A stretch of 36,980 nt of DNA, taken from positions 1 through 36,980 of IMG/VR virus record IMGVR_UViG_3300017613_000280. One strand, written 5' to 3'. Below the pieces are notes generated by a model. The model saw only the letters and a list, made by a program, of their open reading frames with translations, had not been told where the DNA came from and ran no database searches. This stretch comes from a virus. The translations under genes and the position numbers were made by a program. This document shows positions 6,044 through 36,980 of this stretch, piece after piece. Position 1 is the stretch's first letter. Each line of letters opens with the position of its first letter.

Positions 6044-6055
6044 AATTCCCTCAAT

Positions 6056-11463: not shown

Positions 11464-11855
11464 AAGATATGGTTGATCTGCTGAATGAACGCATTGCTGA
11501 GCTTGAGGCAGAGATAGCAGACCTCACCCTGCGCCTCAACCGCTGGAACTCGGGCGGGAATTGGCTCAAGGCGGCGATTAAGGATAGGGACAGGAAGATT
11601 GCGGAGCTGGAGGCAGAGAACGAACGACTTAGCACCGGGGTATCCAACTGCGCTAAAACGGTCGATCAATTGATGACCGAGAACGAGCGTTTGCGTCGAG
11701 AGCGTGAAACGATTCCATTTGAAGTGCTGGACATGACCCCTGACAAATTCATTGCCCTAAAGAAAGACGCCGAGCGGTGGAGAAAGGGCAGAGAGAAGGG
11801 GTGGATATGGCTTGGGATGGAGAATGAAATCGACGCCGAGAGGGGTGAGGAATGA
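11460..11855 (+). CDS. Coiled-coil protein B, 131 aa
   Basis: The second of the set has an ATGA start overlapping gene A. It has ERIAELEAEIADLTLRLNRW as in gene A, then IKDRDRKIAELEAENERLST, then a cap of EVLDMTPDKFIALKKDAERWRKG. Its last 28 bases (ending GGGGTGAGGAATGA) closely match the end of gene C. It is a long parallel coiled coil with no enzymatic motif. Its role may be a scaffold or inhibitor; this is unproven. Confidence 0.7.
   Translation: MKDMVDLLNERIAELEAEIADLTLRLNRWNSGGNWLKAAIKDRDRKIAELEAENERLSTGVSNCAKTVDQLMTENERLRRERETIPFEVLDMTPDKFIALKKDAERWRKGREKGWIWLGMENEIDAERGEE
11499..11556 (+). repeat. 58-bp direct repeat, copy 2
   Basis: This is identical to 11209-11266 and falls at the same relative place in the second coiled-coil gene. 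Confidence 0.92.
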
Positions 11856-12415: not shown

Positions 12416-12540
12416 CACTAATCCTCGGCATGATGATACTCGAAATGAACGACGCGCCGAACTGGCATTATGTGCTGCTAACGGTTATCTGGATCATTCG
12501 GAACCATGTTGTTTCTTACTTGGATGGGAGAAGGTGGTGA
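12412..12540 (+). CDS. Small hydrophobic protein, 42 aa
   Basis: A 42-codon ORF has ATGA overlap with coiled-coil gene C and TGATG overlap with the next gene. It has two short hydrophobic stretches (MTLILGMMILEM and HYVLLTVIWIIRNHVV) and a basic end (YLDGRRW), so a membrane association is likely. It is short, but the coupling at both ends supports it. Confidence 0.55.
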   Translation: MTLILGMMILEMNDAPNWHYVLLTVIWIIRNHVVSYLDGRRW

Positions 12541-12746
12541 TGACCATCAGCGTGTACGTCAATACAGACGCCGAACTCGACAAAGAAATGCTTGAAGCCT
12601 TGACTCGCTTTGAGGTGCAGAAATGCGTTGTATCTGAATTCGAGACAACAGAAGCACAGATTGCGCTGTTTCTTCTGCTGAATTATGGAGACGACCTTGC
12701 GTCGAAGTTCAAGCCAGAAATGATGCTTAAAGCCCGAGGCTCTTGA
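12540..12746 (+). CDS. Hypothetical protein, 68 aa, last rightward gene
   Basis: The preferred start is the ATG at 12540, overlapping the preceding stop. The protein (MTISVYVNTDAELDKEMLEAL, then TRFEVQKCVVSEFETTEAQIALFLLL) has a strand-helix-strand pattern. No family is recognised. Its 3' end overlaps the convergent leftward gene by 20 bases. Confidence 0.6.
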   Translation: MTISVYVNTDAELDKEMLEALTRFEVQKCVVSEFETTEAQIALFLLLNYGDDLASKFKPEMMLKARGS

Positions 12747-12748
12747 GC
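12725..12748. terminator. Hairpin at the convergent gene ends
   Basis: GCTTAAAGCC and GGCTCTTGAGC can pair in a 10-bp stem with one bulged C and a 3-base loop. It covers the stop codons of both convergent genes. Neither strand has a T-tract after it, so an intrinsic terminator is only weakly supported. It may act in both directions. Confidence 0.35.
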
Positions 12749-18109: not shown

Positions 18110-18750
18110 TAGCCACCAGCCTCGCTAGTTTGTATCCAGTCAGCAAGTTGCGCGGGCGGTATATAAGCATTATTCCAACCACTGCCACCCGCCATATCCC
18201 AAGGATTGGCTGTCACACCACCTCCGGGCGTCAATCCCATAGCACGCATAAGCTGGAATTGTCCCGTAGTGTTTGGAACCAACAGTCCCTGCTGAATAGC
18301 GAAGTCAAGCATGGCCTGGTTTGAAGGCTCTGTCTGCCCTGCTGCAGGAGTAGGGGCAGCGGGCTGTGCCAACTGGTCTTCCATGCCATACATACGAAGC
18401 TGAGAGGCTTGAGGCTGCATCTCAGGAGGTAGCGCGGAGGTCGGACCAACCATATTCGGCATGTTGGGGTTCATTCCCATCATCGACATGGCATTCGGTC
18501 CCATCGCGTTGGTGCGCGTAGGCGTGAATCCCTGCGTAGGAAGCCCCTGCTGCGGCCTCTCGGTGGAAAACGGACTACCGAGCCCCATGCCCTGCATCTG
18601 CGTCATCTGCGGAGGTGGACCCATCCCAATCGGTTGAGGAAAGCCGCCCTGTGAGAGCATCCCCTGCTGTGCAGGAAAACCACCAGCCTGCTGGCCTCCG
18701 CCAAACAGACCACCACCTTGCAATTGCCTCATAATGTCTTCGGTAATCAT
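18109..18750 (-). CDS. Gly/Met/Gln/Pro-rich virion-cluster protein, 213 aa
   Basis: This is low-complexity over most of its length (LQGGGLFGGGQQAGGFPAQQ; MGPNAMSMMGMNPNMPNMVG), with a more ordered end (SNQAMLDFAIQQGLLVPNTT, then NPWDMAGGSGW). It overlaps the nozzle gene upstream and the GNAT-like gene downstream. Such Gly/Met-rich chains occur beside ejection proteins. It could be an internal protein or assembly factor; nothing more can be said. Confidence 0.55.
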   Translation of the reverse strand: MITEDIMRQLQGGGLFGGGQQAGGFPAQQGMLSQGGFPQPIGMGPPPQMTQMQGMGLGSPFSTERPQQGLPTQGFTPTRTNAMGPNAMSMMGMNPNMPNMVGPTSALPPEMQPQASQLRMYGMEDQLAQPAAPTPAAGQTEPSNQAMLDFAIQQGLLVPNTTGQFQLMRAMGLTPGGGVTANPWDMAGGSGWNNAYIPPAQLADWIQTSEAGG

Positions 18751-20330
18751 CGTCTGCCTGCCTTTTGGTAGTCTACGTCATAGCCAGATATCTTCCACGA
18801 GACATCTGCCTGACTGGAAAACTCAATAGCGTGTAATCGCCCCGTTACTCGAAAGTTCATCCTGTGGTCAGTGTCCGGGTCAAACGTCTGCCCAGTCGAC
18901 CAGGTCACGGCTTCATTCAAGTTATTCTGGAACCCGATCTTCACCGTGAAGGGATCGCCCTCTGCGTGAGGGTAGACCTCGAGAACCTTGTGCCAGTCTG
19001 CCTTGTCACCGAGGTCGAGTTCAGACCTGCGAGCATAACAGGTCATGTTGACCCCATCTGCGGTATTCGTCCGGTCCATCTCGAAGAGGTCTGTGGCTCC
19101 ACCAAGGATCAGAGACTCGCGGTAGGGGTTGTCATCGAGGTAGGCACCGTACGTCTGGATAGCGGCATCCCATCGGGTATCGTAGGTGTAGGTGCCGGGT
19201 GTGTAGTTTCCGACCCCAGCGTCAGCATCCCCGTAAGTCCAACCAGATGAACGGTCAACCACACCAAATGTGCCAGCAGTCACGCCGGGGAGTTGGCGGG
19301 GGCTCCATGTGTTGTCCTTAGAATTCCAGACAAGCGCCTTGTCGCAGGACACGCTATTGGCCGATGGGTAGCAAACCCAGACCTCACCAGTGCGCTCGTA
19401 GTAAATGACGAATGTCTTGTGCTTATAGGTCCGTGAAACATCATCGAAGAAAAGATCCTTCACCCTCTCATCGGCTATGGATTGGAAGTTCGTTCCATCG
19501 TAGAGATAGATATCTCCATCACCGATGAACACATGCCTCCCCCCAACGTCGCAAACGCAGTTTCTGGCGAACAGCCCATAGGACAAGGTGACCAGTCGGA
19601 AGTTGTAGACGTACTTGTCACCCGTGAAGGTCGCCGAGTAGATTGCATCTGTTTTGTATATCTGCAGGGTATCGCGTAAACCAAGGCCATCGATGATCGC
19701 TCCCGGCGTATCCACCAACTCGGTCTGCCCTGCGAGGTACTCCGGGGATGTTATGTCCCAGGTCTTAGGGACGGTCCCAGGATCAGCTGGATGGCTCCAA
19801 TGCACTTTCCTGGAGTTATACCCGTCGCAGTCTTCGATATTCATGGCAAACAGGCTGGATCGAAAAGAGCGGATGATCTTCGCCCGCATTCCTACATCGG
19901 TCCAGGTGCAAATATTAACCGGATCAGTCGAGTCGTAAGGCAGGTCAACAACATTCCCGCTCCCACCCCAGTATTGTGGGTTCTCAGCAAATGTGGTCAG
20001 GATTCCAACCCCACCGAGAACGCACGAGTCCCAAGTCCCAGAAGTCCCAAACCCGGTGCCTATGGTGCTTTCCACACCACCCCTGACCGAGTAGATATCG
20101 CTCTGTCCCGCGTAGACGATGAAAGACTGCTGCCCCGTTTTGACGGTCAACATGGTCTCAGGCAGCTCAGTGATCGTCGCAGCCGACTCGTGACCTTCAA
20201 ACGAGGCTATGGACCCATCCACACAGCGGGTGTTCTGCATCTCGGACCAAGCGTTAGGTGGCGTAGCATGCGGCTCTTTATCCGCCACATACCCCACCCG
20301 ACCAAGGTCTTTGATTGACGTGGTTTTCAT
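18747..20330 (-). CDS. Tail nozzle/stabilisation protein, P22 gp10-like
   Basis: The preferred start is the ATG at 20330 in a TGATG overlap. This 527-residue beta-rich protein has repeated blades (SFIVYAGQSDIYSVRGG; LQIYKTDAIYSATFTGDKYV; GRHVFIGDGDIYLYDGTNFQ; FVIYYERTGEVWVCYP). The order matches the stabilisation or nozzle proteins of podoviruses (P22 gp10 and T7 gp12 type), which form a hexameric beta-propeller tube below the adaptor. The LSYGLFARNCVCDVGGRHVF segment is typical of that group. It follows the fibre genes in the transcript. Confidence 0.7.
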   Translation of the reverse strand: MKTTSIKDLGRVGYVADKEPHATPPNAWSEMQNTRCVDGSIASFEGHESAATITELPETMLTVKTGQQSFIVYAGQSDIYSVRGGVESTIGTGFGTSGTWDSCVLGGVGILTTFAENPQYWGGSGNVVDLPYDSTDPVNICTWTDVGMRAKIIRSFRSSLFAMNIEDCDGYNSRKVHWSHPADPGTVPKTWDITSPEYLAGQTELVDTPGAIIDGLGLRDTLQIYKTDAIYSATFTGDKYVYNFRLVTLSYGLFARNCVCDVGGRHVFIGDGDIYLYDGTNFQSIADERVKDLFFDDVSRTYKHKTFVIYYERTGEVWVCYPSANSVSCDKALVWNSKDNTWSPRQLPGVTAGTFGVVDRSSGWTYGDADAGVGNYTPGTYTYDTRWDAAIQTYGAYLDDNPYRESLILGGATDLFEMDRTNTADGVNMTCYARRSELDLGDKADWHKVLEVYPHAEGDPFTVKIGFQNNLNEAVTWSTGQTFDPDTDHRMNFRVTGRLHAIEFSSQADVSWKISGYDVDYQKAGRR

Positions 20331-21256
20331 CAACTGATATCCACCAGGATTGACACGTACAGTGGGACCACGTTCCCAGACTCTCCACCCGTTGTGAGCT
20401 TAAGATATGTCCCAGCGGCAACCGTCGACTGGTTTATCGAAGTGTCAGAATCAACATCCCCAGCACCGCTGCCACTATAGGCTACATGGAGCACAGCCAT
20501 CACCTGATCTGTGGATGTCTTCAGCTCGACAGTTGGATCTGCTGTGATAATGGTTCCGCCTAGAACTGAGTCAACTCTTGTGACAATTCCAGCCATCGAC
20601 ATCGGGACGTAAATTATGTCAGAGGTGGATATGTCTGGAATGACTACATTGACGACATAGAACCCTCTGGCATCGGCGTAAGCCTCTGTTGCATACGAGG
20701 CATTATCAACATAAGCCTTGATGCTCTGCTGTGTAGCCAGTGCCGTTGCTGAGTCTGTACCCATTGCATCCTCATCGAGGATGGCGGTAACAGTCGCCCC
20801 AGAGGCCAGCACGAGGCTTGTGCTTAGCGTTGCGGCCCCGGTCACTGCCAGGGTAGAGGATAGGGTCGCAGCACCCGATGCAGCGATCGTGGTGAACGCG
20901 CCGGTAGAGGCTGAGTTGGCCCCTATGGCCGTAGCATCGACCGAACCCCCATTGATGTCCACCGTGGTAACAGCACCAAGGTTAGACCACGTTAGGATCG
21001 CACCGTTGATTGCGTCTCCAGCACTGACCGTCAGCGCCTTGGATGATTCAGCCGTGCCCAGGGTAGCGACATCCAGGTAATTCATTTGTACATCTGAGGT
21101 GGTGACAGCGCCTGAGATATTCCCCCAGTCTGTTGTCAACACAGTCTTGAGTTGCTGCAGCTCAAGGTAGATGGCATTAGCACCAAATGGATCATCGCTG
21201 GTCAGCGGAGAGGATGCGTTTAACTCATCAATGTGTGAAGCGTTTTCTAATGCCAT
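20330..21256 (-). CDS. Tail fibre protein with Ala/Thr/Ser repeats, 308 aa
   Basis: The ATG at 21256 has AGGAA upstream. The middle contains tandem strand repeats (STGAFTTIAASGAATLSSTL, AVTGAATLSTSLVLASGATV) typical of trimeric phage fibres, then a linker (ATALATQQSIKAYVDNASYA) commonly found before fibre tips. The C-terminal 120 residues form a beta domain (VVIPDISTSDIIYVPMSMAG onward). It probably binds the host surface or links a tip to the tail. Ser/Thr/Ala content is much higher than in the neighbours. Confidence 0.72.
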   Translation of the reverse strand: MALENASHIDELNASSPLTSDDPFGANAIYLELQQLKTVLTTDWGNISGAVTTSDVQMNYLDVATLGTAESSKALTVSAGDAINGAILTWSNLGAVTTVDINGGSVDATAIGANSASTGAFTTIAASGAATLSSTLAVTGAATLSTSLVLASGATVTAILDEDAMGTDSATALATQQSIKAYVDNASYATEAYADARGFYVVNVVIPDISTSDIIYVPMSMAGIVTRVDSVLGGTIITADPTVELKTSTDQVMAVLHVAYSGSGAGDVDSDTSINQSTVAAGTYLKLTTGGESGNVVPLYVSILVDIS

Positions 21257-23519: not shown

Positions 23520-24317
23520 CTATATCTCCGTCCAAATATCTGATGATGCGGCCACTTCTGACCATGATGATGATGTGGGCGGTATGTCAGTCCATACCAA
23601 ACCAGTTATCCCTACATTGTAGCCAGTAATGGTAACAGCCCCGGTTGTTACTGATATACCAACACCAGCCTCAACCCCGGCATTCACCCCGGCAATGGTT
23701 ATAGCGCCCGTTCCGACATCAATAGATGTGCCTGAACTTATCGAGGCGTTAATGCCAGATACAACAATTGACCCTGTGCCGATATCCAACTCTGTTATCT
23801 GATTGATAACAGCAGCAGTCCCTGTGACAGTCAGCGCACCTGTTGTTACAACAATATTTGTCGCGCCGATGACCTGCTGATCAATAACCGCGTTGACACC
23901 AGCAATTGTCAGAGCACCTGTCGAAACAGAGACATTCCGATTAACCTCTATCGACGCAGTGGTTGCAGCAATCGCCAGCGCACCCGTGCCTACCGATACT
24001 TCATAAGAGAGGTCGTGGACAATGGTTGTGCCAGTCCCGGAAACCGTGATCGCGCCTGTCCCGACCGATACCTCATAAGAGAGGTCGTTGGTGATTGTTG
24101 CACCAACACCAGCGATGGTAATCGCGCCTGTACTGACAGACACATTGTTTGCTTGTGATATTGTTGCATCAATGCCAGCAATCGTTAATGCGCCAGTTCC
24201 TACCGATACCTCTGTACCACCAGCTGTTACAGCACCCTCAACAATCCGACCATTGACAATGAGCTTTTCGCCATCGGCAACTTCAACAATCCGACCATTA
24301 ACAAGAAATTTAGCCAT
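23520..24317 (-). CDS. Repeat protein with nine beta-solenoid-like units, 265 aa
   Basis: The start is by TGATG overlap. After a doubled opening (FLVNGRIVE and LIVNGRIVE), residues about 36-238 are nine repeats of 22-25 residues on the theme VSVGTGALTIAGxxAxI. A tail with three Trp units follows (WTDIPPTSS, WSEVAASSD, WTEI). Repeats 2-4 keep DNA-level identity around 23985-24095, so they are recent. Regular strands of this kind suggest a solenoid or fibrous stalk in the tail, with the Trp tail as a binding or assembly tag. No known family was recognised. Confidence 0.65.
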   Translation of the reverse strand: MAKFLVNGRIVEVADGEKLIVNGRIVEGAVTAGGTEVSVGTGALTIAGIDATISQANNVSVSTGAITIAGVGATITNDLSYEVSVGTGAITVSGTGTTIVHDLSYEVSVGTGALAIAATTASIEVNRNVSVSTGALTIAGVNAVIDQQVIGATNIVVTTGALTVTGTAAVINQITELDIGTGSIVVSGINASISSGTSIDVGTGAITIAGVNAGVEAGVGISVTTGAVTITGYNVGITGLVWTDIPPTSSSWSEVAASSDIWTEI

Positions 24318-25687
24318 CAGGCGAGATCAATAGTTGTATCAAAATAAACAGTAGCTGACGCCTTAGCTACATAGACGCGAATCATCGGCACGGTATCCGC
24401 ACCAGCATCTCCAGATGTTCCTACCGTGATCTGATATCTATTTTCAGATGTTCGCCCTGTCCAGACGTCACTGTTTGTTGTCAGCGCTCCGCCTGTCCGC
24501 CACGGAACAAAAGCGTCTGATACAGAATGCGCGGCGTTCCATGTTTGCTTATTTGTTCCATCTGGATAATACACATCGACCCATACATCCGCATCGGTCA
24601 GTGTTGAAGACGAAAGAAGGTACACAACTATTTCGTCCGTGCTTGCGCTCGACAGTTCAGCGTAGCGCGTTGGGAAATCGAATATGAATGGTGCACCCAT
24701 AGTCGCTGATGCTGTCGTTACTGCCTTTAGGCTTACTTTCTGGCTTGAGTCTGGGAAAGCGACCGAACTATCCCTATAGATATTTGTCGCGTCTTCAACA
24801 GCCCCTGATACGTTCTGATAATAATATTGATACTCTGCTGCTGCAGACGATGACGATGACCTTACACCGTGGAACTCCATACACCGATTATAGAAATCAG
24901 TCTTTTGCACATAGCTAGTTAGCGACGCACTAATTTTGCAGCCATCTATATACAGTTGAGTTCTATCGTGCGAGGTGCTCTCGCCAATGTCTGCAAACAG
25001 ATATGACGATCCTCCGCTGATTGACGACAAATCTACGGCCTTAAACAACATGGAATAACCGCCTGCTGTTGAGTTACTGCCAATCAACTGCAGCCCGGTC
25101 CCGCCTTCCGAAAAAGAAACAGATCCACCGTACATCTCCAACGATGAACCGCCTACCCCTCCGAAAAAACAGCTTGCGTCATTCAAATCTACTGCGCAAT
25201 CAATCAACGTCGCAGATGACCCATCACCAAGCAGCATTACTCGATTTGCTGACCATGCAGGTAGATTAAGGTCGCAGCCAACAAACATCGTCCTGTCATT
25301 ATCGCCAGCGGTTACGTTGATTTCATCAGCAGAATTATATTCCATGCCGATATTCGTTATGTGGCCTGCAAATGCAATATCATCTACAGCAGCAGTTGCT
25401 GCTGTTTCAGAGGCACCTTTCAAATAAGCATCTGCGTCCGTATCGTCCACACTGATTACGGTTAATGCCGCCCCACTAATGGCTGGGCCTGAAAAACTTA
25501 CAAGCCCAGAGGTATAGGTGTGACTGTGTGAACTTGAACAACAGATAAAATCACCAGCACCAGCGCCACCTGTTATAGCCGCCTTGATATTTGCATAATA
25601 CGCAGCAGGCCATGCCCCGGTTTCCTGCGTTCCGCCAGAGGGTGATCCAGACCCAGGTGATTTCACATAGTAGTAGTTACCAGCCAT
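24317..25687 (-). CDS. Probable tail spike-like beta-helix protein, 456 aa
   Basis: It opens MAGNYYYVKSPGSGSPSGGT. Long runs of short strands with turns (ISVDDTDADAYLKGASETAA; NIGMEYNSADEINVTAGDND; TMFVGCDLNLPAWSANRVML; CAVDLNDASCFFGGVGGSSL) fit a right-handed beta-helix. The end (VTIGTSGDAGADT-like, residues about 420-435) is a jelly-roll-like domain. It is Ser/Ala/Gly-rich and higher in AT than the head genes. A glycan-binding or depolymerase role is possible, but no catalytic acid pair can be picked out by eye. Confidence 0.55.
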   Translation of the reverse strand: MAGNYYYVKSPGSGSPSGGTQETGAWPAAYYANIKAAITGGAGAGDFICCSSSHSHTYTSGLVSFSGPAISGAALTVISVDDTDADAYLKGASETAATAAVDDIAFAGHITNIGMEYNSADEINVTAGDNDRTMFVGCDLNLPAWSANRVMLLGDGSSATLIDCAVDLNDASCFFGGVGGSSLEMYGGSVSFSEGGTGLQLIGSNSTAGGYSMLFKAVDLSSISGGSSYLFADIGESTSHDRTQLYIDGCKISASLTSYVQKTDFYNRCMEFHGVRSSSSSAAAEYQYYYQNVSGAVEDATNIYRDSSVAFPDSSQKVSLKAVTTASATMGAPFIFDFPTRYAELSSASTDEIVVYLLSSSTLTDADVWVDVYYPDGTNKQTWNAAHSVSDAFVPWRTGGALTTNSDVWTGRTSENRYQITVGTSGDAGADTVPMIRVYVAKASATVYFDTTIDLA

Positions 25688-27039
25688 CAGAATTCCCTAT
25701 AGATAACCCAGCCGTCATTATCTGCAATGCCAATGAACACCCCTGGCAACAAAGTCCACCACTTCTCATAGACCGGCATTGTTACCCCGGAGAGTATATC
25801 TCCAGCTGCTTGTTTTTCTTCGTACTCGCCGGTCTGTGTGTTGTATGTCCTGATTCTGTTGTTGCCATCCCAGCCAACGACAATGCCTTCAGATACAGCA
25901 GTGCCGTCTTCATCATCCCAGCCGCCGTCGCCATCCTCTCGGCCAAAATTAACAAGGTTAGATTTAGCAACCGGATTGCCATCAAGATCAACCCTTATAT
26001 GGTACAGACCGCCGTTAAGTGAAGTGACGTATAAATCCCTGCCGTCCATAATCATGTGACCACCCGAGCCGCCCCAGATGGTCCTATCCATGTCGCGGAT
26101 TTCCCAGGTGAATGGGTCAATCTCTTTGAGCCTGCCACGGATGCCAGTCAGGTATATCTTCTGCCGCTCATCATCCCATGCGGTTTTCTGGTAGCCGTCA
26201 AACTCATCAATAGGGATCTGCAAATATTCGCCAGCATCAGTCCATTCCCATAGGCGTGGACTTTGCGGTATTGGATTCCACTTGCAACCTGGGAAGCCTG
26301 CCGTCCCTGTTGGGACGTAATTCTTTACCCTGAACATCACCGTCGCTTCGAGAGGCGGCACGTACACCTGGGAGTCATAGGTGTGCACACCATACGGCCC
26401 GTCTTCAAGTTCTACGCATTGCAGCCATCCGTCGCCGTCTGTATCGACCAGATCAGGGAATGGTGCTTGAATCGGTGAATAGTCATAATCCCTTGACCAC
26501 GTGAGCGTTGACGCATCGAAACTGTAAACGCTATTTGCACCAATATCGGAATGCCCGCCAGAAGCGATAATACGGAAGATGCCACGCTCCTCATCAAACG
26601 ACATTCCAGACCAGACGTTGAGAACGTTGAATGACCTATGGCACTTCAGTACAGCGCAAGTAAGCGACCCATCGCTAGGTAGTAGGACAGGCGTCAGTGC
26701 AGTGTTTGGGATACGCCGAATCTCCCCGACAGGGGGAATGAACGGCAGAAACGCGTCGCGCCAGTTGCCAGTCTGCGGCGGCGGATCGACTGGAGGCTCG
26801 ACGGGTGGCGTATCGTCAACCACTTCAAGATCAGCACTAGGAGTTACCAGAACGTACTGCCCCGGCGGCAAAGATGCAGCACCCTCGGCAACCGACATGA
26901 TAGACCCCGGCTGGATGCTTTCAATAACGGCCCCGTTCTCGTCGGTCAAAAAGCTTTCCGGCATTTCAAATTCAACGCTTATGCTCGCCACGGAAAAAAC
27001 CGGGGTTGCTAAAAGCATGGCAAGCAAAAACTGTCTCAT
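25687..27039 (-). CDS. Exported propeller-like protein with Pro-rich linker, 450 aa
   Basis: The N-terminus is a Sec signal peptide: MRQ, then FLLAMLLATPVFSVA, with a likely cut near SVA/SIS. A beta domain (about 20-75) leads to a linker, TPPVEPPVDPPPQTG. Then come blades in a kelch-like pattern: FNVLNVWSGMSFDEERGIFR, IIASGGHSDIGANSVYSFD, IYLTGIRGRLKEIDPFTWEI, and IVVGWDGNNRIRTYNTQTGE. Virion tail proteins normally lack signal peptides, so this one is predicted to leave the cytoplasm. The next gene upstream has the same layout. Substrate and role are unknown; enzyme or surface-binding function is inference. Confidence 0.62.
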   Translation of the reverse strand: MRQFLLAMLLATPVFSVASISVEFEMPESFLTDENGAVIESIQPGSIMSVAEGAASLPPGQYVLVTPSADLEVVDDTPPVEPPVDPPPQTGNWRDAFLPFIPPVGEIRRIPNTALTPVLLPSDGSLTCAVLKCHRSFNVLNVWSGMSFDEERGIFRIIASGGHSDIGANSVYSFDASTLTWSRDYDYSPIQAPFPDLVDTDGDGWLQCVELEDGPYGVHTYDSQVYVPPLEATVMFRVKNYVPTGTAGFPGCKWNPIPQSPRLWEWTDAGEYLQIPIDEFDGYQKTAWDDERQKIYLTGIRGRLKEIDPFTWEIRDMDRTIWGGSGGHMIMDGRDLYVTSLNGGLYHIRVDLDGNPVAKSNLVNFGREDGDGGWDDEDGTAVSEGIVVGWDGNNRIRTYNTQTGEYEEKQAAGDILSGVTMPVYEKWWTLLPGVFIGIADNDGWVIYREF

Positions 27040-28544
27040 TGGACCACCTCTACTGTGGGCAAGCTGTATTTATTTGGGTCTGCGCATACATCACCGGACA
27101 CTCCGCCCTCACACCAACCGCTTGTTCTTGGTGCGGAGTAATAAATTTTCTCAATGTCGCCGGTAACATTCTCAAAAGTAATCTTTGATTTCTGCCCCCA
27201 TCCCATAGGGACGGCAAGCGGGAACGGCGAAGAACCAAGTCCAAGCCCTGTATTTTCCAGCTTCGACACACGATAACTCGGGGTCATCAAGTTCAACGTT
27301 TCGTGCCATGTCGGGTCTGCGTTTGCAATCAGTGAATCCCAATCTTGAAATTTATTTTCTCGCCACCAGAGCAAAAGCCTTGTCGCTGTGCTGATTGTCC
27401 CATAAGGGTAGGCGCTTTCCAGCAACCAGCCACGACAAGGCGGGGCCCCAGAGCAGTCGATTTTCATGTCTTTCACAACTGTCTCGATTGGCGGAAACGT
27501 CCAACTGTCAGAGTCGTTATACTCTGGTGTTCCCCAAGTCAGCGGCCTGTAGTGATCACCATCAAGCCTTCGAGACAACGAGGTTATCGCCGGTCTCCGA
27601 CGGAATGTAGCCGCGTGATATGCGCTGTTAGGCCCCTTCCTGTGATAGACAACCCGGTTATTCTCAAACAGCGTCGAGCCATTCACGTAAATATCGACAG
27701 GCGGAGACCCAACAATCGGAGTTCCAGCATTATTGGTAACGATGGCCCCATCACACTGAATGTTGCATATCTCGTTGTCGAGGATCACGGCCTTCTGCGC
27801 TATCGAGCGCAGTGCATGCCCAAGCCCAGGAGACTCAATCTTGTTACGTTGGATGTTTGCAAATGCGTTGTTATCGATGTACAGAGCGTGCTGACTGTTC
27901 CCCTTGCTGAAGGTTGAGTCAAGCACCTCGACATAAAGATGCAAGGCGTTTGAAGACGTTATCAGCGCATGTCCATTCCAGTCGCTTACATCTAGGTTAT
28001 GGGCAACAAGAAAGTGCTTATCGTTTGGCGAGCCAATTCCATTTGTGCTTAGGTTCTCAAGAAACACCCCGCCATCAATCAGCGTTCCGGTATAGCCTTT
28101 AGTAGCATAAACATTCGCTCTTGGCTTTTCGCCGTTGGGGCCAAGGATTCCTTTAACGTGTACACACCCAGTCATGTTCCTGGCTAGTATTTCCGGTGGT
28201 CCTGCTGCGCCATACTGCACCTCTATCTCATGTTCCCATGATCCCACTGGGCCACACATCTCGGTAATCATCCGCCAACCGTCTGCGGGCGTGTTATAGG
28301 CTGGCTGATAGTAGTCTGCATACCGCGACGAAACAGGCACCAATGGAGCCAATTTTGTATATCCGCTTGGCGGCTGGACGGGTGGTTCAATCGGCGGCTG
28401 GACGGGCGGGACTATAACAGGAGGTTCAGTAATTACAGGAGGCACAACAATGGCATCATGAGAGACAGTTAGGCGAATCTGCACAGCCGCAAACGCGCCA
28501 ACACTCAGCACACCAGCCAATGCAGCAATAAAAAACTTATACAT
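27036..28544 (-). CDS. Exported right-handed beta-helix protein with Pro-rich linker, 502 aa
   Basis: The preferred start is the ATG at 28544, giving MYKFFIAALAGVLSVGAFA, a Sec signal with an AFA/AVQ cut. A longer form with 12 extra residues is possible. The linker is rich in PPV repeats (about residues 32-58). Then come beta-helix rungs (HFLVAHNLDVSDWNGHALIT; LHLYVEVLDSTFSKGNSQHA; LYIDNNAFANIQRNKIESPG; AVILDNEICNIQCDGAIVTN), as in parallel-helix polysaccharide lyases and hydrolases. The C-terminus has Cys pairs that could form disulphides (WCEGGVSGDVC), fitting an extracytoplasmic place. Lyase activity is plausible but not shown. Confidence 0.65.
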   Translation of the reverse strand: MYKFFIAALAGVLSVGAFAAVQIRLTVSHDAIVVPPVITEPPVIVPPVQPPIEPPVQPPSGYTKLAPLVPVSSRYADYYQPAYNTPADGWRMITEMCGPVGSWEHEIEVQYGAAGPPEILARNMTGCVHVKGILGPNGEKPRANVYATKGYTGTLIDGGVFLENLSTNGIGSPNDKHFLVAHNLDVSDWNGHALITSSNALHLYVEVLDSTFSKGNSQHALYIDNNAFANIQRNKIESPGLGHALRSIAQKAVILDNEICNIQCDGAIVTNNAGTPIVGSPPVDIYVNGSTLFENNRVVYHRKGPNSAYHAATFRRRPAITSLSRRLDGDHYRPLTWGTPEYNDSDSWTFPPIETVVKDMKIDCSGAPPCRGWLLESAYPYGTISTATRLLLWWRENKFQDWDSLIANADPTWHETLNLMTPSYRVSKLENTGLGLGSSPFPLAVPMGWGQKSKITFENVTGDIEKIYYSAPRTSGWCEGGVSGDVCADPNKYSLPTVEVVQ

Positions 28545-28905
28545 AAAACCATCCGTTGTCTCGTGGATTTTTGCACCCAAACAGGAAAGTTGCCCAATGC
28601 CAGTAGTACGAGCGCATTAGTCGGCCTTCACTTCTCAATATGTCCCGCAATACATTCGCACATTGCCAGGATGAAATAGGCGCACCATCTTCCCAGCACG
28701 CATCAGCGCACAGTTGATCGTGGCACCACCAAGCAAGCGACGTAATATCAAAAGCACCAGACGCCCCATCACGGACCTGTCCTTGCTTGATCTTTACCCA
28801 CTTGCCATAGCGTGGCGACTTATACCGCCACAGCTCCAACGCCTCATACAACCCGTCTGGCCTGTGACGATAGCGGAACCCCTGCGGCGTTATGTGCGTC
28901 TGCAT
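28537..28905 (-). CDS. DUF1353-like phage protein, 122 aa
   Basis: The start is the ATG at 28905, in TGATG overlap with the peptidase stop. The motif VRDGASGAFDITSLAWWCHD, followed by ADACWEDGAPISSWQCANVL and RDILRSEGR, matches the DGAS...HD layout of the DUF1353 family found beside phage lysis and tail genes. Its function is not established in the literature I know. The His-Asp in WWCHD and the nearby Asp could bind a metal. It lies between the endolysin and the exported beta-helix gene. Confidence 0.62.
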   Translation of the reverse strand: MQTHITPQGFRYRHRPDGLYEALELWRYKSPRYGKWVKIKQGQVRDGASGAFDITSLAWWCHDQLCADACWEDGAPISSWQCANVLRDILRSEGRLMRSYYWHWATFLFGCKNPRDNGWFYV

Positions 28906-29273
28906 CAGTATGTCCACACCCAAGGGCGCGGCCTGCCTTCTGCTGGTTCTGCGTCATCTATGTGCATCTGGAACCTTCCACCCTTCTGCTTAACTCCGAT
29001 GCCGGTAAATCCGTAGTAGAGGGCGAACTCCAGAAACGCGTGGTAATCCTCGCGACCAATGTCAGGATCAATCGCCCTGCCTTCTGTATGGGAACCTGCT
29101 TTGCCGTCATACACCACACACCGATATCCACCACCCAGGACAGGACGGATCGGCTCGCCCCACTCTGTACGAAGCGCCTGAAGGCGGCTGATAAAGCCTG
29201 CGTCCATTTTGCTTTGGCCGCAGCAAGGGCATGCAAATTCAGATTTTGAAAAGTTTGCACTTAGATCACCCAT
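28905..29273 (-). CDS. M15-family peptidase, probable endolysin
   Basis: This 122-residue enzyme matches the short M15A (peptidase M15_3) endolysins. It has NFSKSEFACPCCGQ (7-20) and GGYRC (48-52), then the zinc site: SHTEGRAID with His62 and Asp69, and FQMHID with His104. It cleaves peptide bonds in peptidoglycan stem peptides. No signal peptide is present, so it needs a holin to cross the inner membrane, and the three small membrane proteins just upstream could supply that. Its start overlaps the 29-residue membrane ORF. Confidence 0.87.
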   Translation of the reverse strand: MGDLSANFSKSEFACPCCGQSKMDAGFISRLQALRTEWGEPIRPVLGGGYRCVVYDGKAGSHTEGRAIDPDIGREDYHAFLEFALYYGFTGIGVKQKGGRFQMHIDDAEPAEGRPRPWVWTY

Positions 29274-29355
29274 CGGTCACAACAATAACGATTGCCACCC
29301 ACCCAAGAATCAAGCAGGCCACATAGAACAATGCTTCAATCAGGCTAGGGGGCAT
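29266..29355 (-). CDS. 29-aa membrane peptide in lysis cassette
   Basis: The ORF MPPSLIEALFYVACLILGWV...VTDG is almost one transmembrane helix. GGTGA lies 6 bases before the ATG. It overlaps the gene before it by 11 bases and the endolysin by 8 bases. There is no positive charge, and a Glu and an Asp sit near either end. It may be a pinholin-like or holin-modulating peptide. Confidence 0.6.
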   Translation of the reverse strand: MPPSLIEALFYVACLILGWVAIVIVVTDG

Positions 29356-29614
29356 CAGCAATCACCGCTTCACAATTTATCTGATCGATGTAAAGCTCCC
29401 CGGCAATCTCATTCTGTTGAAAACATAGCTCGCTTAGCAGTTTGTCCCTACGCTCGCCCATTGCGGCGGTATTCCTGCCGCCAACATTCATGAACACACG
29501 TACCTCATTGAAGAAGTCGTCATGATAATGTTGTTCGGTAGAATCACTGATTGCATCCCAAACTGACAACCCAAGAATAATGGCAATCAGAGCCCCCGTA
29601 ATCCACTGCTTCAT
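29345..29614 (-). CDS. Membrane-anchored lysis-cassette protein, 89 aa
   Basis: The preferred start is the ATG at 29614 (MKQWITGALIAIILGLSVWD), overlapping the holin-like stop as ATGA. One N-terminal membrane anchor is followed by a periplasmic-type soluble part (STEQHYHDDFFNEVRVFMNV, then ERRDKLLSELCFQQNEIAGE). This is the topology of an inner-membrane spanin, but the soluble part is short and no outer-membrane lipoprotein partner is seen. It could instead regulate the holin. Two Cys lie in the soluble part. Confidence 0.58.
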   Translation of the reverse strand: MKQWITGALIAIILGLSVWDAISDSTEQHYHDDFFNEVRVFMNVGGRNTAAMGERRDKLLSELCFQQNEIAGELYIDQINCEAVIADAP

Positions 29615-29832
29615 GATCCCACCCACGCTTTCAGGTCTGGATAGAATTGCATCAAGGCAATCGCCCCAACCAAGCCCCAGATGATCCGCTCAAGATATAC
29701 AAACCTGTCCTCGTGCCCGTTCAGCCGCTTAGAATGTTGGGCAACCATCGCTTCGATTGCCTCGATTTTCCCGTCACGTAGCCCGGCTTGATAGTCATGG
29801 TCTGCTGTTGGCATGGGTATAAAATTATCCAT
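29611..29832 (-). CDS. Holin-like protein (XhlA-type layout), 73 aa
   Basis: An N-terminal soluble helix with heptad spacing (GKIEAIEAMVAQHSKRLNGH, EDRFVYLERI) is followed by one membrane helix (IWGLVGAIALMQFYPDL). This order fits XhlA-like phage holin/hemolysin proteins. It begins the lysis cassette and overlaps the adaptor gene upstream by 8 bases. Only one membrane helix is present, so it may work with one of the two other membrane peptides encoded next. Confidence 0.65.
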   Translation of the reverse strand: MDNFIPMPTADHDYQAGLRDGKIEAIEAMVAQHSKRLNGHEDRFVYLERIIWGLVGAIALMQFYPDLKAWVGS

Positions 29833-30508
29833 TTAAAATATTGAACGTACTGCGGTCACCCATTGACGCCAACTCACTAACATCAAGCTCAGCGTCATCC
29901 CGGCCTCGCTCTGAAAGTTCGTTAAGGTCGGCCAGGCCTTCCTCGAAGAGCGTCTTCCACAAAACGATTCGTTCGTCGTTACGCATGAAGCCCTCGGCCT
30001 CCGAGAGCGTGCCGTACAGATAAACGTCTGGGTAATTCGTCAGCAACCAGTTTGAAGTATCAGTAGCTAAATCCCACCCTTTCAGGTAGTGCATCATGAC
30101 CAAGTGATCAGAGCCAACAGGAGCACTGAACTCGATTTGGTCGCGGAGGGTGTAACTTAGCCTGCCTGCGGTCGCAGATGCTCCGTAATACTCTACGATC
30201 CTTGCTGGATCGACGTATCGCAACTCCTCGTAGGCAGTATCTGCCGCCGTCGAAGGCTTTATGCGCAGTGGCATAAGCATCTCGATGTAGCCCACGGGGA
30301 GAGCCAGCAGCCTATCTCCAAGAGCCGCAGTGCCTGCTGCATAGGTGGCATAGGCCAGTGTTTCCATCTCCCGCAGCCTTGCTCTACGATTGATCTTAGC
30401 CTCGCACCGCTTCACCATATCTGGGATTGCGGCGACGAAACCCGTCTCTGTGATGTCGAGTTCAGTCTGAACCGCTGTCTGAAGCTCTAAGTAGGTCGTC
30501 AGTGCCAT
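29825..30508 (-). CDS. Head-tail adaptor protein (SU10/P22 gp4-like)
   Basis: This 227-residue protein fits the phage adaptor family seen in SU10-like podoviruses. It has TYLELQTAVQTELD, IPDMVKRCEAKINRRARLRE, METLAYATYA, LLALPVGYIEMLMPLRI, SNWLLTNYPDVYLYGTLSEA, and EGFMRNDERIVLWKTLFEEG. Adaptors form a ring below the portal and lock the DNA in while binding the nozzle. Its start overlaps the sulfotransferase end by 10 bases. The C-terminus (RGRDDAELDVSELASMG) is typical of the docking extension. Confidence 0.82.
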   Translation of the reverse strand: MALTTYLELQTAVQTELDITETGFVAAIPDMVKRCEAKINRRARLREMETLAYATYAAGTAALGDRLLALPVGYIEMLMPLRIKPSTAADTAYEELRYVDPARIVEYYGASATAGRLSYTLRDQIEFSAPVGSDHLVMMHYLKGWDLATDTSNWLLTNYPDVYLYGTLSEAEGFMRNDERIVLWKTLFEEGLADLNELSERGRDDAELDVSELASMGDRSTFNILNG

Positions 30509-31362
30509 GATGCTGCCTTGTTGGTGTCCATGTACCCCAGACGCTTCATCGTGCGCCCAAAGAGCTTCTCAATTCGATACTGTTGTTTCTCGGTCAGCTT
30601 CTCACGCCAGCCACCTACCTCGCCCTTGCCGAAAAACTGATCCTTGGCGTGGGTCGATGACTCCATGAACCCCATGTCCTTCTCGATGTCCCGCAGCTTG
30701 TCCAGCTCTACCAGCTTCAGTGCCTGGCGCACTCGTAGTGGCTCAGGATCCACCCCAGCGTGGCGCAGGATCTCCGAGAACACCTTCACGGGCTCAGCCC
30801 GCATGTCCTCGTACCGGAACACTTTCACATTGTGCGTGTCAGCATTCAGGAATGAATTTGTGTGTGCATGCCACGATGACAGGAAATCGGCCATCAGCCC
30901 TTGCTTATCCGTCAGCGTTTTGTACTTGTCGCTCATCCACTCGATGCCCTGGTCCAAGTCGCAGCCCATGTGCTTGCAAAAACTTGGGAGCACGTCTCGA
31001 GGGTCTCGCACAATGAAGATCACGGCCCTCGTCAGCGACATAGGGTAAAGCTCTACCCCATTCGCGATCATGTGCGCCGTGTGAGACTTCACAAACAGCG
31101 GAATCCCGTGGTTCTGCGTATTGTATGCCCGGACCAGCCGGGTCATCCCCATTGGCTTGATAAGGTGCTGAATGTCGACAGGCAGGTCACCAACCTTCGA
31201 ACCGTCCCCGATATCATAAAGCCCAGCCCTGTTGCTGGAAACAGAGGCGACAACATCGTTGATGTTCAATTCATTCAGGAAATAGGCGTCGAGAAACAGC
31301 CGCAACCAAGTATTCCCTGATTTCGGGTAACTGGCGATCCAGATGATCTGGCGGTAATGCAC
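30499..31362 (-). CDS. PAPS-dependent sulfotransferase
   Basis: The preferred start is the GTG at 31362 (preceded by AAGGGATCT), giving 287 residues; an ATG 30 codons upstream would overlap the previous gene. The sulfotransferase core is clear. YPKSGNTW (12-19) is the 5'-phosphosulfate loop. FVKSH with His94 is a candidate catalytic base. VRDPRDVLPSF (118-128) is the 3'-phosphate loop. RYEDM lies at 184-188 and GGWREKLT at 250-257. It would transfer sulfate from PAPS to a hydroxyl or amine on a glycan, lipid or small molecule. It is an accessory gene inside the head operon; the acceptor is unknown. Confidence 0.87.
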   Translation of the reverse strand: MHYRQIIWIASYPKSGNTWLRLFLDAYFLNELNINDVVASVSSNRAGLYDIGDGSKVGDLPVDIQHLIKPMGMTRLVRAYNTQNHGIPLFVKSHTAHMIANGVELYPMSLTRAVIFIVRDPRDVLPSFCKHMGCDLDQGIEWMSDKYKTLTDKQGLMADFLSSWHAHTNSFLNADTHNVKVFRYEDMRAEPVKVFSEILRHAGVDPEPLRVRQALKLVELDKLRDIEKDMGFMESSTHAKDQFFGKGEVGGWREKLTEKQQYRIEKLFGRTMKRLGYMDTNKAASWH

Positions 31363-31381
31363 AGATCCCTTGTTTTCCTGG

Positions 31382-31795
31382 TCAGCCAAAAGCCTTCTCC
31401 CGCTTGCGTATAAGCATAGTCGTCTTCTCCGACTTACGGTCCCAGATGCCAAGCGATTGCTTCATCTTCCTGGCAAATGACTTCCAAAACTCGACGCTCA
31501 TCTGCGGCGGGTTATCCGTTGTCGGAACCAGCAGCAACGAGCCGTCATCGACCCACTTGCAGATCAAACCTGACCGATCGGGCCTCTGCCGGTCAGGGAC
31601 AAAATTCGTTTTCCACGCGCAACTAAACGTGTGACACACATCAATCCTGTTCTCGTAGTCGCCACACCCGGACTCGCACAAATGCTTGCACGGGCTACCG
31701 TGCTTGATGCCGAGTTCAGGGACAGGCAACGGACCCATGCAGCAGGCTGTACATCCGCCGCAGGGTTTTTGTAACAAGAACGTTGCCTTTCCCAT
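31382..31795 (-). CDS. CxxCxxCC-type (YkgJ-like) cysteine cluster protein, 137 aa
   Basis: The N-terminus has CGGCTACC (Cys12, 15, 18, 19), followed by Cys36, Cys40, Cys44, then DYENRIDVCHTFSCAW with Cys54 and Cys59. This is the YkgJ/UPF0153 pattern, a putative zinc or iron-sulfur site of unknown role. No membrane segment is present. It lies 19 bases upstream of the sulfotransferase start and after a hairpin terminator, so the two could form one accessory pair. The ribosome site before its ATG is poor. Confidence 0.77.
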   Translation of the reverse strand: MGKATFLLQKPCGGCTACCMGPLPVPELGIKHGSPCKHLCESGCGDYENRIDVCHTFSCAWKTNFVPDRQRPDRSGLICKWVDDGSLLLVPTTDNPPQMSVEFWKSFARKMKQSLGIWDRKSEKTTMLIRKREKAFG

Positions 31796-34117: not shown

Positions 34118-35355
34118 TGACGTTCCAGCACTTTTATTCTGCTTGGGTCGAAGGTCACATAGTTAGACGATCCTTCTCCTGCTCCACGGGACATGCCGTC
34201 GAGGTAGCGGATGCCGGGGATGCCGAGAGATTTAAGGTATTCGGACGCTGCAGCCTCTGGACTAGTTGGTGGTAATCCTGTGTTGGGCAATCCTCGGCCA
34301 GCCGTTCTTGCCAACTCTTTATACGCAGATGCACCAGTCTCTCCGCCTAAATCAAATTTAAATGTTGTTATGTTTTCCGCGACATCACTTAGTTTGCGCA
34401 GTATTGCTTCGTCAGCGCCTGCCACTGCTCCAGCATCTACCATGTCTAAAATTGCTTCTCGCGCTGAACCTTTATCTGTTGCGGTTTGTAGTCGTATCGT
34501 TGCTTCATCAAATGGTTTTAGTAAGCTAGGTGTTTTTGAGTAAATTTCATCGCGGATAGGAGCGCCTAGTTCATATCCCATCCTAGAAAACTTCTTTCTA
34601 TCTAATTCTGGTGCAGTCTCCAGCGCCTTCCTGACACTCTCAGGCTGCTCACTCAGCGGCTTGTCCCAATCGAGGTACTTGGCAATGTCTTCGTCGGGGA
34701 TGTCGAGCTTGTAAAGGTAGCCTTCACTTGGCGGCAACACAGATCCTTTCGCCTTCCAGTCAAGTAATTTTTCTTTAACGCTGTCTGCCCCATCCGCCCT
34801 AATTTTCCCAATAACCGATCCCTCGGCCAAAGAGTCTGCTTTTGTGATGTCCATTTCTTTTATGGCTGCATCAATGTCGCCATTATGTTTAGCAATAATG
34901 GACTCTGCGGCTCCCTCGTTTCCTGATATCGGTCTTCCTTCTACGCGGAGGCGACTCCCTTCCCTGATTCGATAACCTGCCGCAACATCATCAGCGTCAG
35001 CAGAATAAAACCCATGCCCGTAAGCTTGAGCGCCTTCGCCAGTGCCTACCTTCGAGATATCAGGCACATCCCACTTGTGTGGCGAACCGTGCCATACCGT
35101 CTTGCCGATCATCCCAGGAATGCCCAGCAACCCATGCGCGAGGAAACCCCCGCCCATCGCATCACCTAGCAAGCCACCAAAAGCGCCGTAATCTCCTGCC
35201 ATCCCTGCGCGAGCTGCATCACCATACTGGCGCATCCCCTGCTCAGCAATACGCCCGGACCTAACGTCATCCAGGTACTGCATCACAGTCTGCCCCATCT
35301 CCCCCATAGGCTCCGGTGGCCGGTGCGTCATTCCAGGATGGGCAAGCAAAGGCAT
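34114..35355 (-). CDS. ADP-ribosyltransferase-like (ART-PolyVal type) virion-cluster protein
   Basis: In this 413-residue protein, residues 1-80 are a Gly/Ala/Met-rich module also present in the protein at 12727. An ART-like domain follows: VWHGSPHKWD (His89) and GEGAQAYGHGFYSADADDVA (Tyr at 118), the His and Tyr positions of H-Y-E type ARTs. The end (IRYLDGMSRGAGEGSSNYVTFD) is typical of ART-PolyVal domains found in phage polyvalent proteins. It may be carried in the head and modify a host protein after ejection. The catalytic Glu is not identified with confidence. It lies between portal and scaffold genes. Confidence 0.65.
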   Translation of the reverse strand: MPLLAHPGMTHRPPEPMGEMGQTVMQYLDDVRSGRIAEQGMRQYGDAARAGMAGDYGAFGGLLGDAMGGGFLAHGLLGIPGMIGKTVWHGSPHKWDVPDISKVGTGEGAQAYGHGFYSADADDVAAGYRIREGSRLRVEGRPISGNEGAAESIIAKHNGDIDAAIKEMDITKADSLAEGSVIGKIRADGADSVKEKLLDWKAKGSVLPPSEGYLYKLDIPDEDIAKYLDWDKPLSEQPESVRKALETAPELDRKKFSRMGYELGAPIRDEIYSKTPSLLKPFDEATIRLQTATDKGSAREAILDMVDAGAVAGADEAILRKLSDVAENITTFKFDLGGETGASAYKELARTAGRGLPNTGLPPTSPEAAASEYLKSLGIPGIRYLDGMSRGAGEGSSNYVTFDPSRIKVLERQ

Positions 35356-36980
35356 TAGTACGCGAGCCCCTGCGGTGCGAGATCCTTCTGTGCTTCGATC
35401 TCGAGGTCGGTAATGTCGGTGACGAACTTCTGCATGTCGGCCTTGGCCTTTCTCAGCGTCTCGGCCTGCTTGTTCTGAAGGTCGCCCTGCTTGTTCTGGA
35501 GCTCGATCTGCAGCTGTGCAATCTGGTGCTGCATCTGCTGTACGGCCTGCTGTGCCTGCTGCTGAACAGCCTGGAGCTGCTGGTCCTTCTGCTGGATCAG
35601 TTGTTTGATCTGAGGGTTCTCGTCTTGGACGATCTCGGTAGGCAGCAATAGCTTCAACCGCTTGCCAACCTCATCGGCATCAGGCCAGTCGAGGTTCTTT
35701 GCGAACAGGTCGCCAATGATCGGTGCAGCATTCGGGAATGCCTTCAAGAGCTCAAGCATCGAATCACTCGCCTCCTTGCGCTGCGTTGAGTAGCTTGGAC
35801 CGATATCGACCGTCACGTCATAGCGCCCGGTCTCGAGCATGTAGTTCCGTTCCTTCTGCGCCTTCTGGTCGAAGTAGGGCTGGTTGACCTGCACCGGCTC
35901 CTCTTCACCACCAGGCTTGAGAATCCGCACAACACGAGCACCCGTGTAAATCTTGGGGATCAGATCCACCATGATCTTGCCTGCGTAGGTCATCGCACGG
36001 GCCAGGTTGTCAACGAAGTCGAAGTTGCTGACATCGGACTCAGAGCGGCGACTGTCGATCGCCACGCCAGAGACCTCGTTCGAGCGGGCACCTACACCAG
36101 CATCGTAGATTCCGGTCACGCCCTTGATCTCTTCGGAGGCAACTTGCACTTCCTGGGAGAACCCTGGCGACACATCAGGCGGAGGCTCACGTCTTGGTGC
36201 TACATCGCCTTCATACTCGAGGTATGCGTAGTTCTTCGTGTTTGCCTGGCGCCACTTGGGGTTCTTGAACGCGCCCTTCGGCCCGACATACGGAGCCTTG
36301 GCGTATAGTGCAATGCGCTCAGTCGAGGCACTGCGGAAATAGTTGTACTGCCGCTGAGGGTCTTTGATGTCTCGCACCATGCCCTTGCGGATCTGCTCGC
36401 CCTCGATGTCGATCTCTCGACCAAGGCAGCGCACGATCGGGATGTACTTGCCGAGCCAGTCGTTGGTCTCAAGCACCTGTGCTCCGGTCATCAGGCGGGA
36501 AGTAACCTTGCGTCGCGTGGACTCTCGGTCGTCAACGACCTGCAGATGGTCTGGCACCTCACCCTCGATAATGCCCTGCTGTCCTGTCTCAGGGTCCACA
36601 ACCATGCTGAGCGTGAAGACCTCCTCTTCAACCTCCCAGTATTCAGCAACACGTACATGGGTCTCCGAGAACCAGTAATCGTCGTCGTCGCCCTGACCCT
36701 CTTCCCACTCATCGGTGGCATCGGGGTACTTGGTGTCGAACTCCTCTCGCGGCATCTTCTGCACAACGAACCCGAACATCGCATCGGAGCCATCCTGCTT
36801 CTCGGCGCCGGGGTCCAGGTAGACAGAGAACGGGTTGCGGATGCGCTCGACCTTTACCACCTGGTCAAACGTGTTCTCGTGCTCATACTCAGTCAGGATG
36901 CGCCAGTAGCCGACACCCATACGCGCCGCATACTCTGCCGCCCAGTCATACGCTGACTCGGCTGCGCTGTCCTTCTCGAT
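35355..36980 (-). CDS. Portal protein, main part (P22 gp1-like)
   Basis: This holds residues about 115-655 of the portal; the first 131 codons are at 1-393. Recognisable parts are GVGYWRILTEYE, NPFSVYLDPGAEKQDGSDAM, IDIEGEQIRKGMVRDIKDPQ, RQYNYFRSASTERIALYAKA, YVGPKGAFKN, EVSGVAIDSRR and DNLARAMTYAGKIMVDLIPK. They match the wing and stem of P22-like portals. The last 120 residues are Gln-rich (QQKDQQLQAVQQQAQQAVQQ) and coiled, as in the P22 barrel. The stop overlaps the next ATG at 35355. Confidence 0.88.
   Translation of the reverse strand: MEKDSAAESAYDWAAEYAARMGVGYWRILTEYEHENTFDQVVKVERIRNPFSVYLDPGAEKQDGSDAMFGFVVQKMPREEFDTKYPDATDEWEEGQGDDDDYWFSETHVRVAEYWEVEEEVFTLSMVVDPETGQQGIIEGEVPDHLQVVDDRESTRRKVTSRLMTGAQVLETNDWLGKYIPIVRCLGREIDIEGEQIRKGMVRDIKDPQRQYNYFRSASTERIALYAKAPYVGPKGAFKNPKWRQANTKNYAYLEYEGDVAPRREPPPDVSPGFSQEVQVASEEIKGVTGIYDAGVGARSNEVSGVAIDSRRSESDVSNFDFVDNLARAMTYAGKIMVDLIPKIYTGARVVRILKPGGEEEPVQVNQPYFDQKAQKERNYMLETGRYDVTVDIGPSYSTQRKEASDSMLELLKAFPNAAPIIGDLFAKNLDWPDADEVGKRLKLLLPTEIVQDENPQIKQLIQQKDQQLQAVQQQAQQAVQQMQHQIAQLQIELQNKQGDLQNKQAETLRKAKADMQKFVTDITDLEIEAQKDLAPQGLAY
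36930..36980. repeat. 51-bp terminal direct repeat, second copy
   Basis: This is the same 51 bases as positions 1-51. If the duplicate is removed, the circle is about 36,929 bp and the portal gene is continuous. Confidence 0.93.

Follow-up and report, generated by a model that had tools for sequence, protein, structure and literature searches.

As far as is known, the spikes of tailed phages are produced in the cytoplasm, and it is mainly lysis and exclusion proteins that cross the inner membrane; a tailspike stays in the cytoplasm, joins the virion there and carries a head-binding domain. Among the exported proteins, Llp of phage T5 is described as a periplasmic superinfection-exclusion lipoprotein, and exclusion proteins can stop non-productive adsorption to lysed fragments (PMC9586334). 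Endolysins can also be exported by a signal peptide, as described for Lys44 of fOg44 (PMC6116005). Here we analyzed the linear IMG/VR record IMGVR_UViG_3300017613_000280 as a contig over its whole length of 36,980 bases (the window). It is a P22-like phage with its late operon on the minus strand. Two adjacent genes in this operon, which we call A and B, form the subject of this study. Our tentative first choice, still somewhat short of probable, is that they encode a putative Sec-exported, lysis-linked unit that targets glycans and is not part of the virion.

Gene A (27036–28544, minus strand) starts with an ATG at 28544 and encodes 502 amino acids, and gene B (25687–27039, minus strand) encodes 450. 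Both open reading frames (ORFs) are real and lie within the late operon, where the frames overlap at every joint, the one between A and B as ATGA; the pair is indeed one of adjacent late genes, as an earlier note on this DNA had stated. An alternative TTG start at 28580 would lengthen A by 12 amino acids. Protein A consists of a leader-like segment (residues 1–19), a Pro-rich linker (residues 35–59) and a body from residue 62 onwards, while B has a leader-like N-terminus, a short module, a Pro-rich linker and a propeller (residues 91–450).

The central observation comes from a second virus. A scan found the motif GGHxDxx[GA]NxxYxFD in 8 viral loci and its relaxed form in 15. In one locus, L008 (IMGVR_UViG_3300017598_000197), A and B are present as a single protein of 864 amino acids, whose helix part is 58% identical to A (residues 62–499) and whose propeller part is 58% identical to B. 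This fusion strongly supports a link between A and B. It has one N-terminal signal-like segment and a PP linker, and no signal between the domains. Residues 1–61 of A lie outside the tblastn match with L008; nonetheless, signal and PP linker are kept in both. All 8 cysteines of A are conserved in the fusion as well. The L008 protein has one leader, at its front, whereas the window has one on A and another on B. This contrast gives our best argument that the two domains both seem to require export and to act jointly.

Since L008 has genes for tape-measure (phrog_339, E 1e-93) and major tail proteins (phrog_807, E 4e-38), it is a long-tailed phage, of another morphotype than the window. When the 26 late-gene proteins of the window were compared with L008 at E 1e-3, only A, B and two small proteins of 73 and 93 amino acids gave matches. 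The segment that the two morphotypes have in common is the lysis region and not the tail genes. The 93-residue protein (29345–29626, minus strand) has a hydrophobic segment at its N-terminus and is 86% identical in L008 and 95% in a third contig, L010; the 73-residue protein (29611–29832, minus strand; 97% and 93%, respectively) combines a coiled coil with a hydrophobic C-terminal segment and is holin-like by appearance only. At the DNA level, the segment with both genes is 89% identical over 541 bases between the window and L008, and L010 has both genes at 96% identity over 440 bases. Two small membrane-type genes (window 29268–29808) are thus kept at 89–96% DNA identity in three otherwise dissimilar phages, which suggests that this part of the lysis region was exchanged recently among them. 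Neither A nor B was found in L010, in the 15.6 kb read of the 26.3 kb contig. The endolysin-type genes differ between the window and L008 (M15_3 versus M15_4), and in L008 the fusion is overlapped by a 68-residue gene that weakly matches a holin family (phrog_34682, E 0.003).

Leaders were judged by our own tripartite signal-peptide rule, which requires charge at the start, then a hydrophobic core, then small residues where cleavage could occur. Both proteins seem, by this rule, to be Sec-exported, in agreement with the Sec-type signal peptides proposed for them earlier. The predicted segment of A is MYKFFIAALAGVLSVGAFA, followed by AVQ (28488–28544, minus strand), and that of B is MRQFLLAMLLATPVFS, followed by VAS (26983–27039, minus strand), with probable cleavage after about residue 16–19. 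Composition shuffles passed the rule in 73/5000 cases for A (1.5%) and 33/5000 for B (0.7%). Within the late operon, 3 of the 26 genes pass: A, B and the 93-residue membrane-type protein of the lysis region. Reading the leaders of A, B and the L008 fusion directly, we saw no lipobox cysteine behind them. The Pro-rich linkers are evident from the protein sequence and the DNA pattern, with PPVITEPPVIVPPVQPPIEPPVQPP in A (28368–28442, minus strand) and PPVEPPVDPPPQT in B (26770–26808, minus strand). A PPVxPP DNA pattern has four matches in the window, all within these two linkers, where 0.08 were expected and 0/100 shuffles reached four; the PPV-type linkers that had been noticed in both proteins are clearly present.

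Protein B is a predicted kelch-type beta-propeller. The domain (25690–26769, minus strand; motif GGHSDIGANSVYSFD) was delimited by AlphaFold2, structure alignment and the motif. The model, built from a 12-sequence alignment, has a mean predicted local distance difference test score (pLDDT) of 71.3 and a predicted template modelling score (pTM) of 0.77. We aligned 972 of Foldseek's 1000 best PDB chains to B with VIA-align, all with Z ≥ 5. The top matches are kelch and other propellers, and the best is the kelch domain of LZTR1 (Z 22.0, root-mean-square deviation (rmsd) 3.1, 270 residues aligned). Structure prediction and Foldseek, the check that the earlier note had asked for, therefore agree with the kelch-like propeller it had seen. 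No Pfam kelch model reaches its cut-off on B, but such models do match its relatives in L060, L077 and L007, some above the cut-off; E-values of B against its motif-selected relatives are partly affected by the preselection.

The body of A is, judging from family models, probably in part a putative right-handed beta-helix. Pfam Beta_helix matches residues 180–297 weakly (E 0.039) and NosD gives E 0.17; on the L008 fusion the same two models give E 0.06 and E 0.013, and an NCBIfam NosD-type model E 0.0061, all short of the cut-off. AlphaFold2 had 2 sequences to work with and returned an unusable model (pLDDT 32.3). The earlier assignment of A to the right-handed beta-helices is thus probable but not established. 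Because the spacing agrees, we also considered A as a candidate member of the viral beta-helix family that the motif HNxY...GHxxKSR presumably marks, and we found this motif in 61 viral loci; an A profile aligned to the family with an hhalign probability of 12.5%. E-values from the set preselected for this motif were not used as evidence. ORFs with the motif pass the leader rule in 8/52 cases, close to the rate of their neighbours (37/283), so that leaders are not a property of this helix family.

Leaders are frequent on kelch proteins. The rule is satisfied by 7 of the 11 kelch-motif ORFs counted in viral contigs and by 1 of the 39 other ORFs on the same strand (p 2.4e-5, in all three start-codon settings). 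This count covers the distinct 5′-intact ORFs of 15 loci, without L002 and L009, whose protein is already represented by L005, and without L074 and L075 (5′ cut); the four without a signal are those of L003, L004, L005 and L079. Several of these genes have helix partners or lie in suggestive places. In L060, a 474-residue gene with a signal overlaps, again as ATGA, a 770-residue gene with a signal and with kelch, FN3 and beta-helix domains (PF13229, E 2e-6). The 474-residue protein reaches the Pfam cut-off for an Ig model only, and its reading as a helix is ours. L075, cut at its 5′ end, encodes a beta-helix (E 2.5e-10) followed by kelch. The signal-kelch gene of L007 sits amid genes for a 91-residue protein with a match to phrog_937 'hemolysin' (E 0.005), for a weakly holin-like protein (PF11351, E 0.02) and for a phage lysozyme (Phage_lysozyme, E 3e-33), that of L077 two genes past a major-head-protein-like gene, and L006 carries one together with a P22-type portal. 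A late, signal-bearing two-gene unit of helix and propeller, as had been claimed for the window, is present there and recurs as the fusion in L008 and as an adjacent pair in L060, which suggests a recurring arrangement in relatives from other uncultivated viruses. As a separate observation, the signal-kelch proteins of L006 (3–2270, minus strand) and L076 (2145–3863, plus strand) have an extra C-terminal domain that looks jelly-roll-lyase-like by eye and has no Pfam match.

Other searches returned little. None of 50,697 GenBank phage records holds a relative of A or B, so that such a class is easily missed in current collections. In Pfam, PHROGs and NCBIfam, neither A nor B has a match above the cut-off or below E 0.01; in the PDB, searched by sequence, A gives E 0.5 or worse and B nothing. 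Single-sequence searches of the viral contigs confirmed no relative of either protein, whereas motif scans did succeed, and the scan of these contigs with the A profile gave the L008 contig only. Genome scans with the A profile produced 45 pattern matches with 0 confirmed, and the strict kelch motif found nothing in the genome collection; both absences hold for these patterns only. Plasmids gave no match to the propeller core of B, and 10 virus records searched for further relatives of A gave none, in a search that had no positive control. In the literature, covered for few subscription papers, we found no article that deals with helix/propeller pairs exported by phages, with signal peptides on tail fibres, or with the signal-bearing kelch and fibre-type proteins of uncultivated phages.

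What could such a pair do? Late in infection, Sec would move A and B across the inner membrane and the leaders would be cut. Both proteins would fold in the periplasm, perhaps with disulfides, and associate with each other. They would be released with the progeny at cell lysis; in a host that possesses a secretion system, they could cross the outer membrane earlier. B would then bind, and A would cut or bind, a polysaccharide of the host surface or the surrounding matrix. This action would help the progeny to leave the debris and reach new cells, and neither protein would be built into the virion. The proposal builds on the L008 fusion with its one leader, on the lysis region shared by two morphotypes and on the folds; the beta-helix is common in glycan enzymes. 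It is further supported by the kelch partners, including the beta-helices of L060 and L075, by the signal-kelch gene of L007 within a lysis cassette, by the signals on kelch-motif ORFs, and by the lack of a virion-binding domain in A and B at the family cut-off (Pfam, PHROG). Among the three roles named earlier (glycan enzyme, receptor mask, spike with odd maturation), we rank the glycan role first.

Several points weigh against this proposal. Sec alone leads to the periplasm and not to the outside. The beta-helix of A is weakly supported, and Pfam, PHROG, NCBIfam and the PDB by sequence reveal no enzyme family or catalytic residues in A or B. Neither protein is significantly enriched in cysteine (A p 0.06, B p 0.52), and the cysteine content was rejected as evidence, so that the disulfide argument rests on the 8/8 cysteines of A kept in only two sequences. 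The top Pfam match of B is BppU-like_C, a domain of phage structural proteins, although at E 0.12–0.18 over 22 residues it is far short of the cut-off, and the viral structure matches of B include phage kelch proteins, one of which, from Pectobacterium phage CBB, is named a structural protein. Finally, fibre-type proteins with similar leaders occur in tail regions and point to virion parts too.

This last point leads to the strongest competitor, that A and B are virion spikes or fibres which are exported by Sec, fold in the periplasm and dock onto finished particles at lysis; we consider it rather unlikely. A fibre-motif scan of the viral contigs gave 29 loci, with motifs that presumably mark tail fibres. 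The rule is passed by 12 of 23 fibre-motif ORFs compared with 19 of 106 other same-strand ORFs (p 0.001), and by 6/23 versus 15/106 when only the most upstream start is taken (p 0.14). The 23 derive from 30 motif ORFs after removal of L085, L097 and L106 (cut at the 5′ end), of L091 and L098, which repeat L090 and L082, and of L080 and L092, whose ORFs the gene caller did not pick (L080 passes, L092 fails); the near-copies L083 and L086 are both in the count, as having no signal. The statement of the earlier note that phage tail spikes normally lack signal peptides is hence too broad for uncultivated phages. Leader-bearing genes also lie side by side in 16 pairs where 7.4 were expected (0/2000 label shuffles reach this), in loci that were chosen for such genes, which is only partly controlled. 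In L104, a Baseplate_J gene (PF04865, E 1e-12) is followed, after one or two genes, by at least three leader-bearing genes; an N-terminal motif first tried matched L104 alone. In L101, a leader directly precedes a module, which we take to be a fibre N-terminus, that is N-terminal and leaderless in L103 and L105 (one case against two). P22-type portals are present in the window and in 2 of 9 records behind the loci (L006, L071), and a phrog_3287 protein in the window and in 1 of 7 (L089), while L060, L104, L007, L008 and L077 match neither. The phage kelch proteins and the BppU-like_C match of B fit docking as well, and tailspikes of P22 can join heads in vitro. Against docking stand the absence of a recognisable head-binding domain by Pfam and PHROG, in proteins whose N-termini are taken by leader and linker, and the L008 comparison, in which A, B and the 73- and 93-residue lysis proteins match but no tail or head protein among the 26 does. 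L071, P22-like by portal, scaffold and coat, points the same way, as it has a leaderless gene with tail-fibre matches ahead of four leader-bearing late genes in a row; the leader-bearing genes at 5932–8448, 9642–10376 and 10367–13303 have no PHROGs tail match, and three leader-bearing proteins of L071 have no match among the GenBank phage records.

Three loci deserve a remark of their own. The last of the four L071 genes (10367–13303, plus strand) encodes a late protein of 978 amino acids with a twin-arginine-like leader (MQLNRRRFLLGG). L089 has three consecutive late genes with signal-like leaders (10728–13947, plus strand), and the PP-repeat linker of the third resembles the linkers of A and B. 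In L036 (6204–11467, minus strand), next to likely tail genes, seven similar-looking genes in a row encode proteins with MxTFKQ(F/Y)L at or near their start.

Other explanations fit the data less well. A and B could mask or remodel receptors from the periplasm or the surface, in the manner of T5 Llp, so that progeny and rivals avoid the infected cell or its debris. Export, late timing and binding-type folds are compatible with this, but Llp is a small lipoprotein whereas A and B are large, and many phages make exclusion proteins early (PMC9586334) while A and B are in a late operon; we regard a masking role as quite unlikely. If the leaders were left uncleaved, they could anchor A and B in the inner membrane for a lysis step, in timing or in bridging the envelope. 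The position in or just behind the lysis genes in the window, L007 and L008 would suit such anchors, yet small-residue cleavage sites follow the hydrophobic cores, A and B are reminiscent of secreted glycan proteins in their long Pro linkers and large folds, and similar leaders occur in tail regions; we regard anchoring as very unlikely. Least credible of all is an artefact, with start codons chosen to take in hydrophobic codons or host genes misread as viral. It is true that shuffles pass the rule in 0.7–1.5% of cases and that, with lenient starts, up to 18% of the other ORFs in the fibre loci do so too. However, A and B are set among phage genes with overlapping frames, the A start at 28544 overlaps the previous stop, a AGAGGTGG site precedes the ATG of B, and the L008 fusion repeats leader and linker. 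A broader idea, which we think improbable, is that Sec export of some adhesion proteins is widespread among uncultivated tailed phages. Their spikes or fibres would fold and form disulfides in the periplasm, away from the particles in the cytoplasm, and would either encounter the virion when the cell lyses or serve as free decoys; the pair in the window would then be a two-gene form and L008 a single-gene form.

The surroundings of A and B are those of a P22-type late operon. On the minus strand it contains a P22-type portal (35355–36980, phrog_156), scaffold and coat genes, a gene that we label gp4-like (29825–30508, phrog_2941) and, further along, a P22-type structural protein (18747–20333, phrog_3287) and a DNA-ejection-like protein. 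Upstream of A, a 128-residue gene (28537–28923, minus strand; no family match) overlaps its start by 8 bases, preceded by an M15-type endolysin-like gene of the lysis region (28905–29273, minus strand; PF08291, E 3.4e-4, just short of the cut-off; phrog_894 endolysin, E 5e-12). Downstream, the ATG of a 456-residue gene (24317–25687, minus strand) overlaps the B stop as TGATG; its product has no leader and no family match. The placement of the pair between lysis genes and tail fibres, as described earlier, is therefore supported on the lysis side but not for fibres directly downstream. The gene at 20330–21256 is presumably fibre-like; no homologue was found among the ORFs of the collected loci. 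The window contains no Rfam family at the gathering score, no tRNA and no match to a phage integrase. Elsewhere in the operon, a sulfotransferase gene (30499–31452, minus strand; Sulfotransfer_1, E 8.6e-25) lies inside the head genes and has 0 matches in the GenBank phage records, and a protein of 137 amino acids (31382–31795, minus strand) has 10 cysteines (7.3%) and matches phrog_9155, of unknown function.

In summary, A and B resemble several described systems in part. With depolymerase tailspikes of the P22 gp9 type, A shares the late phage gene, a possible beta-helix and a possible glycan target, but it has a signal-like leader and a Pro linker and, by Pfam and PHROG, no head-binding domain. 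Like T5 Llp (PMC9586334), A and B are phage-encoded, seem by our rule to be exported and may act on adsorption; unlike this small lipoprotein, they are large and late and have no lipobox. With Lys44 (PMC6116005), they share a place among lysis-region phage proteins and the predicted use of the host Sec pathway. They carry no peptidoglycan-hydrolase domain, unlike exported endolysins, and the endolysin-like gene of the window is separate. The bacterial kelch propeller YjhT (PDB 2uvk) aligns with B at Z 20.0 (rmsd 3.0, 255 residues) with 11% identity; other kelch domains score as high or higher, and the shared fold shows no shared function. The signal-bearing kelch and fibre-type proteins that we found in L006, L007, L060, L071, L076–L078, L089 and L104 share the leaders with the window pair, several being late and several standing in a row, while domains and contexts differ. 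If large exported helix, propeller and fibre-type proteins do form a class that recurs in late operons, they would be a secreted arm of lytic infection. This would matter for the dispersal of biofilms, for adsorption to debris and for how receptor-binding proteins of phages are annotated. The export of endolysins and of an exclusion lipoprotein by phages is known; what the window and its relatives would add to it is a putative exported pair of helix and propeller.

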